A stretch of DNA of 41,926 bases, taken from a virus. The stretch lies in the IMG/VR virus record IMGVR_UViG_3300010160_000090, positions 1 through 41,926 of that record; one strand, written 5' to 3'. How positions within the stretch are numbered: the first letter of the stretch is position 1; each line of letters begins with the position of its first letter. Below, piece after piece: positions 26,991-30,226 of the stretch. The notes under the pieces were generated by a model. The model had not been told where the DNA came from, searched no databases, and saw only the letters and a list, made by a program, of their open reading frames with translations. The translations under genes and the position numbers were made by a program.

Positions 26991-27482
26991 TTAGTTTTCT
27001 TCTGCGCTGAAGTCATCTACTTCAGTAGAAACGTCGTCACAATCAACGTCATTGTGGCGTCCGCAATAATCAATGCTGATATCAAAGTCACCGTCATCGA
27101 TTTTTTCTTCGTCAAAGTCAAGTGGAACAGTTAGTTCTGCTTCTACGTTAACTGTGAACGAAACTGATATTGTTTTAGTTAGTTCTATATCAAGTTCTGC
27201 GGCAAGTTCTTTTAGTTCTTCTACTGACGCTGAATCGTTCTCCTTGATATGTTCCTTAAGAAACTCTTCTACTGTATTTGTAACTTCTCGCAAACGAGCG
27301 CGGTGTGTATTAGACGCTTGCTCTGTATACTCTAAACGCTTTTTGAGAGATTCGATTGTATTGAAGTGAATCACAAACTCATCTACAAGGTCGCCAAACG
27401 AATGGTCCTTGATAAATTCTTCTGCGATTTGTGCTGGTGTTTGTTCTACTACTATTTCTGTATTTGTTATATCTGTAGTCAT
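26991..27482 (-). CDS. Acidic coiled-coil protein downstream of ribozyme 2
   Basis: 163 residues. The middle is a coiled coil (ESLKKRLEYTEQASNTHR, REVTNTVEEFLKEHI), and the last 45 residues are very acidic (FDEEKIDDGDFDISID). It could imitate DNA or act as a dimeric inhibitor. An AAAGGGAAAA site precedes the ATG. Its 5' leader holds the stem I hairpin left after cleavage by the hammerhead ribozyme at 27.5 kb. Confidence 0.72.
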   Translation of the reverse strand: MTTDITNTEIVVEQTPAQIAEEFIKDHSFGDLVDEFVIHFNTIESLKKRLEYTEQASNTHRARLREVTNTVEEFLKEHIKENDSASVEELKELAAELDIELTKTISVSFTVNVEAELTVPLDFDEEKIDDGDFDISIDYCGRHNDVDCDDVSTEVDDFSAEEN

Positions 27483-27503: not shown

Positions 27504-27520
27504 CTGATGAGGCTCATCAG
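27504..27520 (-). promoter_or_regulatory. Palindrome masking the ribozyme 2 catalytic core
   Basis: CTGATGA (27504-27510) and TCATCAG (27514-27520) form a perfect 7 bp inverted repeat around GGC. On the minus strand the CUGAUGA core of ribozyme 2 can pair with this downstream copy. That hairpin would compete with the active fold. The other two ribozymes lack it. Confidence 0.75.
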
Positions 27521-27562
27521 CAGTACCGTTCAGTACTGGACTCCCTTACGGGAGTTTCGCCT
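27510..27562 (-). ncRNA. Type II hammerhead ribozyme 2
   Basis: Minus-strand order: AGGC (stem II), GAAA (27555-27558), stem III CTCCC/GGGAG with GTAA loop, cleavage site UC (27539-27540), stem I CAGTAC/GTACTG, core CTGATGA (27514-27520), GCCT closing stem II. Every conserved core base, including the G10.1-C11.1 pair, is present. Predicted cut is between 27539 and 27538. Stem II is the open helix, hence type II. It starts five bases past the stop of a 39-residue gene and lies upstream of the acidic coiled-coil gene. Confidence 0.92.
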
Positions 27563-28474: not shown

Positions 28475-28678
28475 TTACTTTCTCCCTTTTTCGATTTGCT
28501 CGTCTAACCAGCATTGGAGTATTGAAACGCTTGCTGTTAGTTCGTTAGCAAGTTGACCGAAATCTGAATCGTTAGTGAAATCGGTAATTGTTTTATCTTT
28601 CATCATCTTGTTTGCTTCTTGCATTAACATTCGTGCGTATTTAAAACTGCTACGAACATCTGACTTTGTATATTCCAT
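28475..28678 (-). CDS. Small hypothetical protein downstream of ribozyme 1
   Basis: 67 residues, helical: TKSDVRSSFKYARMLMQEA, then FGQLANELTASVSILQCWLDE. CAAGGGAT precedes the ATG. Its leader starts with the stem I hairpin produced when hammerhead ribozyme 1 cuts. No family is recognised. Confidence 0.65.
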   Translation of the reverse strand: MEYTKSDVRSSFKYARMLMQEANKMMKDKTITDFTNDSDFGQLANELTASVSILQCWLDEQIEKGRK

Positions 28679-28704
28679 TTTATTATCCCTTGTTTGTTTT
28701 AACT

Positions 28705-28757
28705 GAACTCGTCAGCAACCGCCGTTACGGTTGGACACCCTTTCGGGTGTTTCGTTC
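28705..28757 (-). ncRNA. Type II hammerhead ribozyme 1
   Basis: Minus-strand order: GAAC (stem II), GAAA (28750-28753), stem III CACCC/GGGTG with GAAA tetraloop, cleavage site UC (28734-28735), stem I CAACCG/CGGTTG, core CTGACGA (28709-28715), GTTC closing stem II. The fit to the hammerhead consensus is complete. The predicted cut is between 28734 and 28733. The element begins on the very next base after the TAA of the upstream gene and lies 27 bases before the next ATG. Confidence 0.93.
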
Positions 28758-29093
28758 TTAGTTATGTTTCATTCTGAAAGCGATTAATTTAATAATCGCT
28801 ACTGCGTCGTGATAACTTTGTACGTTTCTGAAATCGTACTTTTCTATTCCGTTAGGTTCATAAGCATTAATTCTGTAACCATCTACGCCTTCATATCTAA
28901 CGAAGATTGAAAAAATTCGCTTATCGTTAACTGTGTGACTGAATTGAAGTTGCTTTGGACGACGGTCTAATTTTGTACCTTCTGGACTATTACCAGCAAA
29001 AGCAATAATGGTATCTAATGCAAGTTCTTGTTTTGTTATAAAACTTGAAATTACTTTATTACTTGCGTCGTGCATTGTATTTGTTGTAGTCAT
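28758..29093 (-). CDS. Hypothetical protein between ribozymes 3 and 1
   Basis: 111 residues: DASNKVISSFITKQELALDTI, GTKLDRRPKQLQFSHTVND, FSIFVRYEGVDGYRINAYE, then FRNVQSYHDAVAIIKLI. Mixed alpha/beta and no recognised family. It is the first clear gene of the early operon. Hammerhead ribozyme 3 lies upstream and ribozyme 1 immediately downstream, so its mRNA would be cut out at both ends. AAAAGGGAAAAC precedes the ATG. Confidence 0.68.
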   Translation of the reverse strand: MTTTNTMHDASNKVISSFITKQELALDTIIAFAGNSPEGTKLDRRPKQLQFSHTVNDKRIFSIFVRYEGVDGYRINAYEPNGIEKYDFRNVQSYHDAVAIIKLIAFRMKHN

Positions 29094-29122
29094 TTTGTTT
29101 TCCCTTTTCTGTAGTGGCTGTT

Positions 29123-29184
29123 CTCATCAGTAACGGTTCGCCTGTCCGTTAGACACCGTGCCTTTTAGTGACACGGTGTTTCGA
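29123..29184 (-). ncRNA. Type II hammerhead ribozyme 3
   Basis: Minus-strand order: C then GAAA (29179-29182), stem III CACCGTG/CACGGTG with an 11-base loop, cleavage site UC (29152-29153), stem I TAACGG/CCGTTA, core CTGATGA (29124-29130), then GA. Core bases are all present, but the closing stem II is only about two pairs, weaker than in the other copies. The predicted cut is between 29152 and 29151. It lies in the leader of the first early gene. Confidence 0.85.
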
Positions 29185-29612
29185 TATAAGGTTGATTTAT
29201 TTTCTAAGGCTGGTTCACCATATTCCATTAACTTTTATTTGCATTGCGCTAAGTCGTGAAGTGTGTATCGCTCGCCGTTTTGATTTCTCTAACGGGTCTT
29301 GAATATCTAGTGCCTAATTTGTTTGTAGTGGCTCCTCACCTCTACAAGTAACCGAACGTCGTGTAACAGTTCGGCTTGGCGTTTTGATATTGGTATCGCG
29401 CTTCTGACTTTAGGTACTTGGTACCGTGCGGTGCTTTATTTTGTTTGGAACCGTTACTTGTAAAAGTTATCCGTTTGTCTTTACCTAAACTTGCTGGTGA
29501 CTTGTGGGGTTTTTACTTTGTCGGCTGGTTACGTGTTGAGAACTTTCCAAGATTTACTTCTTGGATTCTCTTGCCTTCTCTATTTAATTTAATTAGATTT
29601 ACTTTCTATCAC

Positions 29613-29650
29613 CCGATTTAATTCCCTTGGGATTTAAATGATTAAATCGG
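29613..29650. repeat. Hairpin B with CCCTTGGGA loop
   Basis: CCGATTTAAT (29613-29622) pairs with ATTAAATCGG (29641-29650) over 10 bp. The loop contains TTCCCTTGGGA, which recurs in the hairpin 70 bases further on. The shared loop with different stems suggests conserved RNA structure or a paired protein-binding site. Confidence 0.6.
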
Positions 29651-29692
29651 TTCACTAGTTTTGTAAACTAATCTTTGGCTTTTTTCTCTTCT

Positions 29693-29721
29693 GGTTCGCT
29701 TCCCTTGGGAATACCCGAACC
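29693..29721. repeat. Hairpin A with CCCTTGGGA loop
   Basis: GGTTCG (29693-29698) pairs with CGAACC (29716-29721). Between them TTCCCTTGGGA (29700-29710) can form its own small stem. It has the same loop motif as hairpin B and the same orientation. Confidence 0.55.
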
Positions 29722-29743
29722 GCGAGTGCCATATTAATTTGTA

Positions 29744-29772
29744 GTATTAACATTACCCCTAAAGTGTTACAA
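29744..29772 (-). promoter_or_regulatory. Weak candidate leftward promoter
   Basis: Minus strand: TTGTAA (29767-29772), a 17-base spacer, then TAATAC (29744-29749) preceded by TG. This is a sigma70-like layout of modest quality in the right place to drive the early operon. Other promoters in this region cannot be excluded. Confidence 0.28.
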
Positions 29773-29976
29773 ATACCAATACCGTTTATACCCCTTATTA
29801 GGGCGAGCCGTGAGCCTCAGTAAAGGGGCATATAAGCCTGTATGAGCCTGATAGGGGCAGGAAGTAGGTTCTTAGACCCCCAGACCCTTACGGGCATAAA
29901 AAATCAAGCAAAACAGATTTTTTTTGTTAACCTTAAAAAATTAAACACGCGCACGTTAAGCACATAATAAATTTAA

Positions 29977-30007
29977 TTGCGTTAATACCGTGTAACTCAT
30001 TTACAAT
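29977..30007 (+). promoter_or_regulatory. Candidate promoter of a leaderless rightward gene
   Basis: TACAAT (30002-30007) lies exactly six bases before the ATG at 30014. Transcription would then start at or next to the A of the start codon, giving an mRNA without a leader. TTGCGT (29977-29982) is a possible -35 with a long 19-base spacer. No ribosome-binding sequence is present before the ATG, in line with leaderless translation, common in actinobacteria. Confidence 0.5.
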
Positions 30008-30013
30008 AGCGCT

Positions 30014-30226
30014 ATGGCTTATTCATCTGTGGAAATGCGTTGCGGTGGTTTGGTTATTGCCGTTGGTACTGAACTTGCTTATCCAGACGCTATGGACGAT
30101 TTATGTGCGCGCACATTAAATCTATTTCGTGAAGGTGCGGCTACAGCAAAAGAAAATGATATTGATATTTCTAATATGCGATTAATCACTACCGATTATG
30201 GTGATGAATTAGAAGATGATGACTAA
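30014..30226 (+). CDS. Only rightward gene; small hypothetical protein
   Basis: 70 residues: SSVEMRCGGLVIAVGTELAY, then DDLCARTLNLFREGAATAKE and a strongly acidic end (GDELEDDD). Separate promoter and opposite direction suggest a regulatory or early role. It converges on the leftward nuclease-like gene, and the two overlap by four bases at their 3' ends. No family is recognised. The codon-level pattern and the promoter fit support a real gene. Confidence 0.65.
   Translation: MAYSSVEMRCGGLVIAVGTELAYPDAMDDLCARTLNLFREGAATAKENDIDISNMRLITTDYGDELEDDD

Follow-up and report, generated by a model that had tools for sequence, protein, structure and literature searches.

Sequence comparison identifies the leader of a gene cluster in the window, i.e. 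the whole 41,926-base virus contig analyzed here, as a large conserved structured RNA with a type II hammerhead ribozyme (HHR3) fixed at its 3′ end. A single self-cleavage at this site probably gives both the 3′ end of the noncoding RNA and the hairpinned 5′-OH end of an early mRNA. The hammerhead is of a known kind; what is new, in the open-licence papers covered, is its connection with a large phage RNA.

HHR3, including its pseudoknot tail, occupies positions 29116–29184 of the minus strand. It begins with UC (29184–29183) and GAA (29182–29180), followed by a 10-bp stem III (29153–29179; A29179 to C29170 paired with G29162 to U29153) with the loop ACUAAAA, and by a 6-bp stem I (29131–29151; UAACGG at 29151–29146 with CCGUUA at 29136–29131) with the loop ACAGGCGAA. 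The catalytic core CUGAUGA (29130–29124) comes next, then GA (29123–29122), ACA, and GCC (29118–29116), the last being the pseudoknot strand that pairs with GGC of loop I (29142–29140). An initial annotation had described a third hammerhead-like element in the leader, with GAAA, UC, stem I, and CTGATGA all intact, and every one of these parts is present on the minus strand ahead of the cluster's first gene. Its stem III is present as well, but has 10 pairs (9 Watson-Crick and one G-U) rather than the 7 proposed. The features that define the type II core are all found in HHR3 (CUGANGA, GAA, an A-U pair closing stem III, and H17 at the cleavage site), and sequence order and covariation give the type II layout, in which stems I and III are closed by hairpins and stem II is open. 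On these features HHR3 is a type II hammerhead whose core is intact, and we infer that it cleaves itself in the cell. The predicted cut falls after C17 of the hammerhead, i.e. between C29152 and U29151, and U29151 is the predicted new 5′-OH end, at the same position that had been proposed earlier.

A motif scan requiring the core plus at least 6 pairs in each of stems I and III recovers exactly 3 type II hammerheads in the window, all on the minus strand, vs none in 100 order-1 Markov windows searched on both strands; the element described earlier as the third of its kind is thus not a chance match. In a 201-base search, HHR3 matches the Rfam model RF02276 (Hammerhead_II) at 29112–29186 of the minus strand with 31.9 bits (E = 4.6e-5). 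It was missed by a window-wide Rfam scan at E ≤ 1, and like the other 2 hammerheads of the window it does not reach the Rfam gathering score of 37 bits, which is a statistical cut-off and not a biological defining feature. Several orthologues pass it (L154, 44 bits; L158, 43.7; L156, 42.4; and L278, 41.8).

The short stem II had been read as an anomaly that might make the ribozyme slow. Stem II does have exactly 2 pairs in the sequence (C-G and U-A, followed by A.A and U.C mismatches), but so does the Rfam type II model, and Perreault et al. (2011, PMC3088659) describe stems II commonly reduced to 2 pairs, a pseudoknot between loop I and the nucleotides just downstream of stem II in most type II hammerheads, and a construct with a 1-bp stem II that cleaves faster than 1.2 per minute. 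A stem II of 2 bp is therefore normal for hammerheads of the pseudoknot type. The remote pairing suggested as an alternative is borne out by the pseudoknot between loop I and the 3′ tail, which takes over part of the role of stem II. At 3 bp, this pairing is not significant alone in the window, and the claim is carried by its position and by covariation among orthologues. The pairs at this place are GGC/GCC in the window and L064, UGGC/GCCA in L161, UAGGC/GCCUA in many others, UUGGC/GCCAA in L154 and L156, UAUUGGC/GCCAAUA in L158, and a flipped GCC/GGC in L253. Stem II has 4 pairs in several orthologues, vs 2 in the window, whose pseudoknot and stem II are among the weakest in the family.

Two tertiary classes can be recognized in a set of 170 type II hammerheads, most of them obtained from public virus contigs by motif search. 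Those whose stem II has at most 3 pairs combine a large loop I with long loop-tail complementarity (mean 4.3, vs 2.8 when tails are swapped); a stem II of at least 4 pairs goes with a small loop I and little complementarity (2.7, vs 2.3 when tails are swapped). HHR3 falls in the former class. The 2 siblings in the same cluster, HHR1 (28697–28757, minus strand; 33.6 bits; upstream of the gene at 28678–28475) and HHR2 (27504–27562, minus strand; 27.1 bits; upstream of the gene at 27482–26991), both have a 4-bp stem II and belong to the latter; their small loop I and lack of a clear pseudoknot agree with the earlier suggestion that HHR3 may differ from the other 2 elements. No such structured RNA precedes either sibling.

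Among 169 type II hammerheads from a motif search, 134 (79%) have a Shine-Dalgarno sequence and start codon within 60 nt past the core (median 28 nt), vs 15.6% of random positions. Some virus contigs (L063, L065, L081, L087, L090, L106, and L136) carry at least 4 type II hammerheads, mostly just before a gene. The tail of HHR2 (core at 27520) can also pair with its own core (CUGAUGA GCC UCAUCAG), as in L064, L152, L066, and others. Tail-core complementarity of at least 5 nt is found in 18 of 84 members of the 4-bp-stem-II class, vs 1.9% of shuffled tails. In addition, core position N7, which is not conserved, covaries with the tail (U-A in 10, C-G in 6, and other combinations in 3). This pairing may act as an off-state or as a lock after cleavage.

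Orthologues of HHR3 were reached through the loop III hairpin pattern, relatives of the portal protein, relatives of the exonuclease, the pattern of the upstream RNA, and a looser ribozyme pattern, and all these routes converged on the same family. Stems I and III are paired in 351 of 351 cells across 21 distinct orthologues (100%), and 10 of their 17 pairs have changed on both sides, which none of 500 shuffles matched; kinship of the sequences inflates this significance, an effect that the recurrence of compensatory changes in separate subgroups lessens but does not remove. Even between the window and its nearest relative, L064, stems I and III differ through compensatory changes. Near and distant nucleotide searches with the window or the leaders gave no match among INPHARED phages, and two scans of 84,980 genomes with the RNA or ribozyme patterns gave no match, and hence no host or prophage.

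Loop III (ACUAAAA) is nearly invariant in the orthologues linked to the noncoding RNA, while the loops of the siblings differ. This conservation partly reflects hit selection, as some patterns include part of loop III, although L161, L241, and others were recovered by routes that do not use it. In the 1.85 Mb examined, hairpins that combine a CACUAAAAG loop with a stem of 4 bp or more all belong to such hammerheads. The sequence of loop III is dispensable for hammerhead catalysis, and its retention is what would be expected if the hairpin belongs to the mature RNA. A constant kissing partner for loop III, sought by eye in the upstream RNA, was not found.

Many members of the family (L241, L245, L249, L258, L266, and others) have an additional U after A9 of the core, ahead of stem II (CUGAUGA-U-GG; e.g. 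UGGAA and UGGUA). These copies keep the covarying stems and the pseudoknot, and were not recovered by the Rfam type II model in whole-record searches. In one subgroup (L154, L155, and L244), GGGACAnnnnUUCC lies just before the ribozyme and could self-pair using the UUCC of stem II, a possible switch. In L279, a hammerhead of the other tertiary class stands at the place of HHR3, with the core kept and the same loop III, downstream of an RNA closely related to that of the window; this exchange of class with the core kept points to cleavage as the retained trait.

The structured noncoding RNA upstream of HHR3 spans approximately 29186–29870 on the minus strand (∼600–700 nt), its 5′ limit at ∼29870 being estimated from the onset of conservation in relatives. 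It sits between HHR3 and a small divergent gene (30014–30226, plus strand), which has a TACAAT box ∼8 nt before its AUG, as in a leaderless actinobacterial transcript. This leader stretch contains no conserved open reading frame, and the region 29110–29900 (791 nt) folds better than shuffled sequences (z = −4.2). Folding energy does not choose between the strands (−245 as given and −257 for the reverse complement), so the strand assigned to the RNA rests on its orientation with the ribozyme and the genes. Identity to L064 is 80% over 330 nt and rises to 94% over the 72 nt adjoining the ribozyme. The RNA is conserved in about 40 virus contigs, and no Rfam match was obtained at E ≤ 5 for 29180–29990 or in relatives.

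Covariation also supports this structure. The 3′ domain (29214–29532, minus strand) is closed by GUAACC (29532–29527) with GGUGAAC (∼29219–29213), a helix that reads ACC/GGU in the window, GCC/GGC in L064, and GUU/AAC in L280, L282, and L284. Across 15 sequences of one subgroup, this domain has 65 pairs, 33 of them compensatory, with 97.3% of cells paired and no equal among 500 shuffles. In the subgroup to which the window belongs, 30 of 75 pairs have changed on both sides, vs 3–11 in column-shuffled alignments. A long-range pairing seen in the minimum-energy fold, in which 29458–29451 would mask stem I at 29136–29129, was rejected, being no better than shuffles across 25 relatives.

The RNA and the hammerhead are tightly linked. 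Searching with an RNA pattern that ignores the ribozyme, we find an HHR3 orthologue after the RNA in 25 of 27 homologues, a set that includes the window and loci first met by other routes that also match the pattern, and that leaves out L272, where loop III has diverged and a hammerhead is likewise present. The distance from the conserved RNA pattern to the hammerhead core is 71–157 nt, and in a further homologue, L242, the contig ends inside the ribozyme. The reverse search, with the ribozyme pattern alone, retrieved 11 additional contigs. One of these, L283, matches by chance; the other 10 are genuine orthologues, each with the RNA upstream. The 2 exceptions among the 27, L267 and L273, carry homologues of the RNA that are followed by other hairpins instead of a hammerhead, with no other Rfam ribozyme after the RNA of L267; as such, the RNA does not always need the hammerhead.

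On the other side of the ribozyme, the first gene of the cluster (28758–29093, minus strand) encodes a 111-aa protein of no known family. A Shine-Dalgarno-like AAGGGA (29101–29106, minus strand) lies 7 nt before the AUG at 29093, a spacing conserved in orthologues. A Shine-Dalgarno sequence and AUG are found 26–41 nt past the core in 23 orthologues, whose genes represent several unrelated families, and in most relatives the first gene has been swapped for unrelated genes. No relatives of the first gene's protein or of the tape-measure protein were found, candidate sigma-70 promoters were no more numerous than in shuffled sequences, and none of 20 proteins scanned against Pfam is an RtcB ligase or a polynucleotide kinase, enzymes able to rework the cleavage ends. 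The contig carries terminase, portal, and tape-measure genes. Among named phages its exonuclease is closest to those of Actinomycetia phage DSL-LC01 (46% identity) and Streptomyces phage Dagobah (37%), which leads us to guess at an actinobacterial host, while it is gene content that suggests an early timing of the transcript.

Ribozyme structure, pseudoknot, structured RNA, and the linkage of RNA and ribozyme are established by comparison. From these we propose a long leftward early transcript (minus strand) that would carry the structured RNA, then the hammerhead, and then the first mRNA of the cluster. HHR3 would fold through its 10-bp stem III, 6-bp stem I, 2-bp stem II, and the pseudoknot of loop I with the 3′ tail, and would cut once, between C29152 and U29151. 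Because the hammerhead nearly always lies between the RNA and the first message in relatives, one cut would separate both. Hammerhead cleavage leaves a 2′,3′-cyclic phosphate and a 5′-OH. The upstream product would thus be a noncoding RNA that finishes with the stem III hairpin and is expected to bear the cyclic phosphate. The downstream product would be an mRNA that starts with a 5′-OH and directly with the stem I hairpin; this 5′ end lies 58 nt before the AUG at 29093. We infer that the two RNAs are co-transcribed and that separating or maturing them is the selected function. We tentatively go one step further, i.e. HHR3 could be the dedicated 3′-end maturation ribozyme of an undescribed class of large ornate phage RNAs, the same cut starting the early mRNA.

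Loop III conservation and tight linkage favor a role in finishing the RNA, while the position that phage hammerheads generally take, directly before ribosome-binding sites, favors one in the mRNA; both may operate together. The hammerhead might instead serve only to make the 5′ end of the early mRNA, where a 5′-OH and hairpin may protect the message or cleavage may release it from the upstream structure, the RNA being a by-product or an independent transcript whose 3′ end is not selected. The frequency of Shine-Dalgarno and start sites after type II hammerheads given above (79% vs 15.6%) and the halovirus precedent (PMC3088659) fit this view, as do both siblings, whose position before genes without an upstream RNA means that mRNA processing alone could be the general role. 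We nevertheless consider it rather unlikely for HHR3, since it leaves unexplained both the near-complete linkage to the RNA and the conservation of loop III, which is limited to linked ribozymes. A score below the Rfam cut-off, a 2-bp stem II, and a 3-bp pseudoknot could also indicate that HHR3 has decayed or is inactive in this phage, kept as a pair of hairpins or through recent ancestry. This appears improbable given that every core base is intact, that stems I and III differ from those of L064 by compensatory changes, and that stems II of 2 bp are common in type II hammerheads. We give still less weight to the leader and hammerhead acting mainly as DNA homology, a fixed landing site for exchange of accessory early genes: downstream genes do vary between relatives while leader and ribozyme stay, but base-pair covariation reflects selection on RNA structure, not on DNA identity. 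We thus retain cleavage between the RNA and the message as the preferred reading.

If HHR3 is indeed a dedicated maturation ribozyme, the same element would form the end of a regulatory or structural RNA and, simultaneously, that of a message. The role of phage hammerheads has been a question since their discovery, and tying HHR3 to a specific partner RNA offers a concrete, testable one. The upstream RNA is in turn a candidate member of the small group of very large phage RNAs without an assigned function, and the family shows that hammerheads with an extra U beside stem II escape the standard Rfam search.

Several known systems resemble this one in part. With the type II hammerheads (RF02276) described in PMC3088659, the HHR3 group shares its core, strand order, open short stem II, loop I/3′-tail pseudoknot, and clustering beside phage genes; unlike other type II hammerheads, it has a near-fixed loop III (ACUAAAA) and is located where a large structured RNA ends, and unlike the RF02276 model, many members carry the extra U between core and stem II. 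According to the same source, hammerheads of phage transcripts show cleavage both in vitro and in Escherichia coli, and the 5′ end of a halovirus early mRNA maps within 3 nt of the hammerhead site. That element, HHphage of haloviruses HF1/HF2, likewise lies just upstream of an early gene start codon, but it is a variant hammerhead of an archaeal virus, 13 nt before the start codon, and the passages covered make no mention of a large RNA upstream. Theta ribozymes of gut Caudoviricetes are also self-cleaving elements proposed to end a phage noncoding RNA by trimming tRNA 3′ trailers (PMC10879173), but they have an HDV-like fold and a tRNA partner, vs a ∼700-nt RNA here. GOLLD and ROOL (PMC12286853) are likewise very large structured phage or prophage RNAs whose function is not established. 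They often lie near tRNA genes, of which ARAGORN finds none in the window, and unlike them, the RNA described here matches no Rfam covariance model and is linked to a hammerhead.
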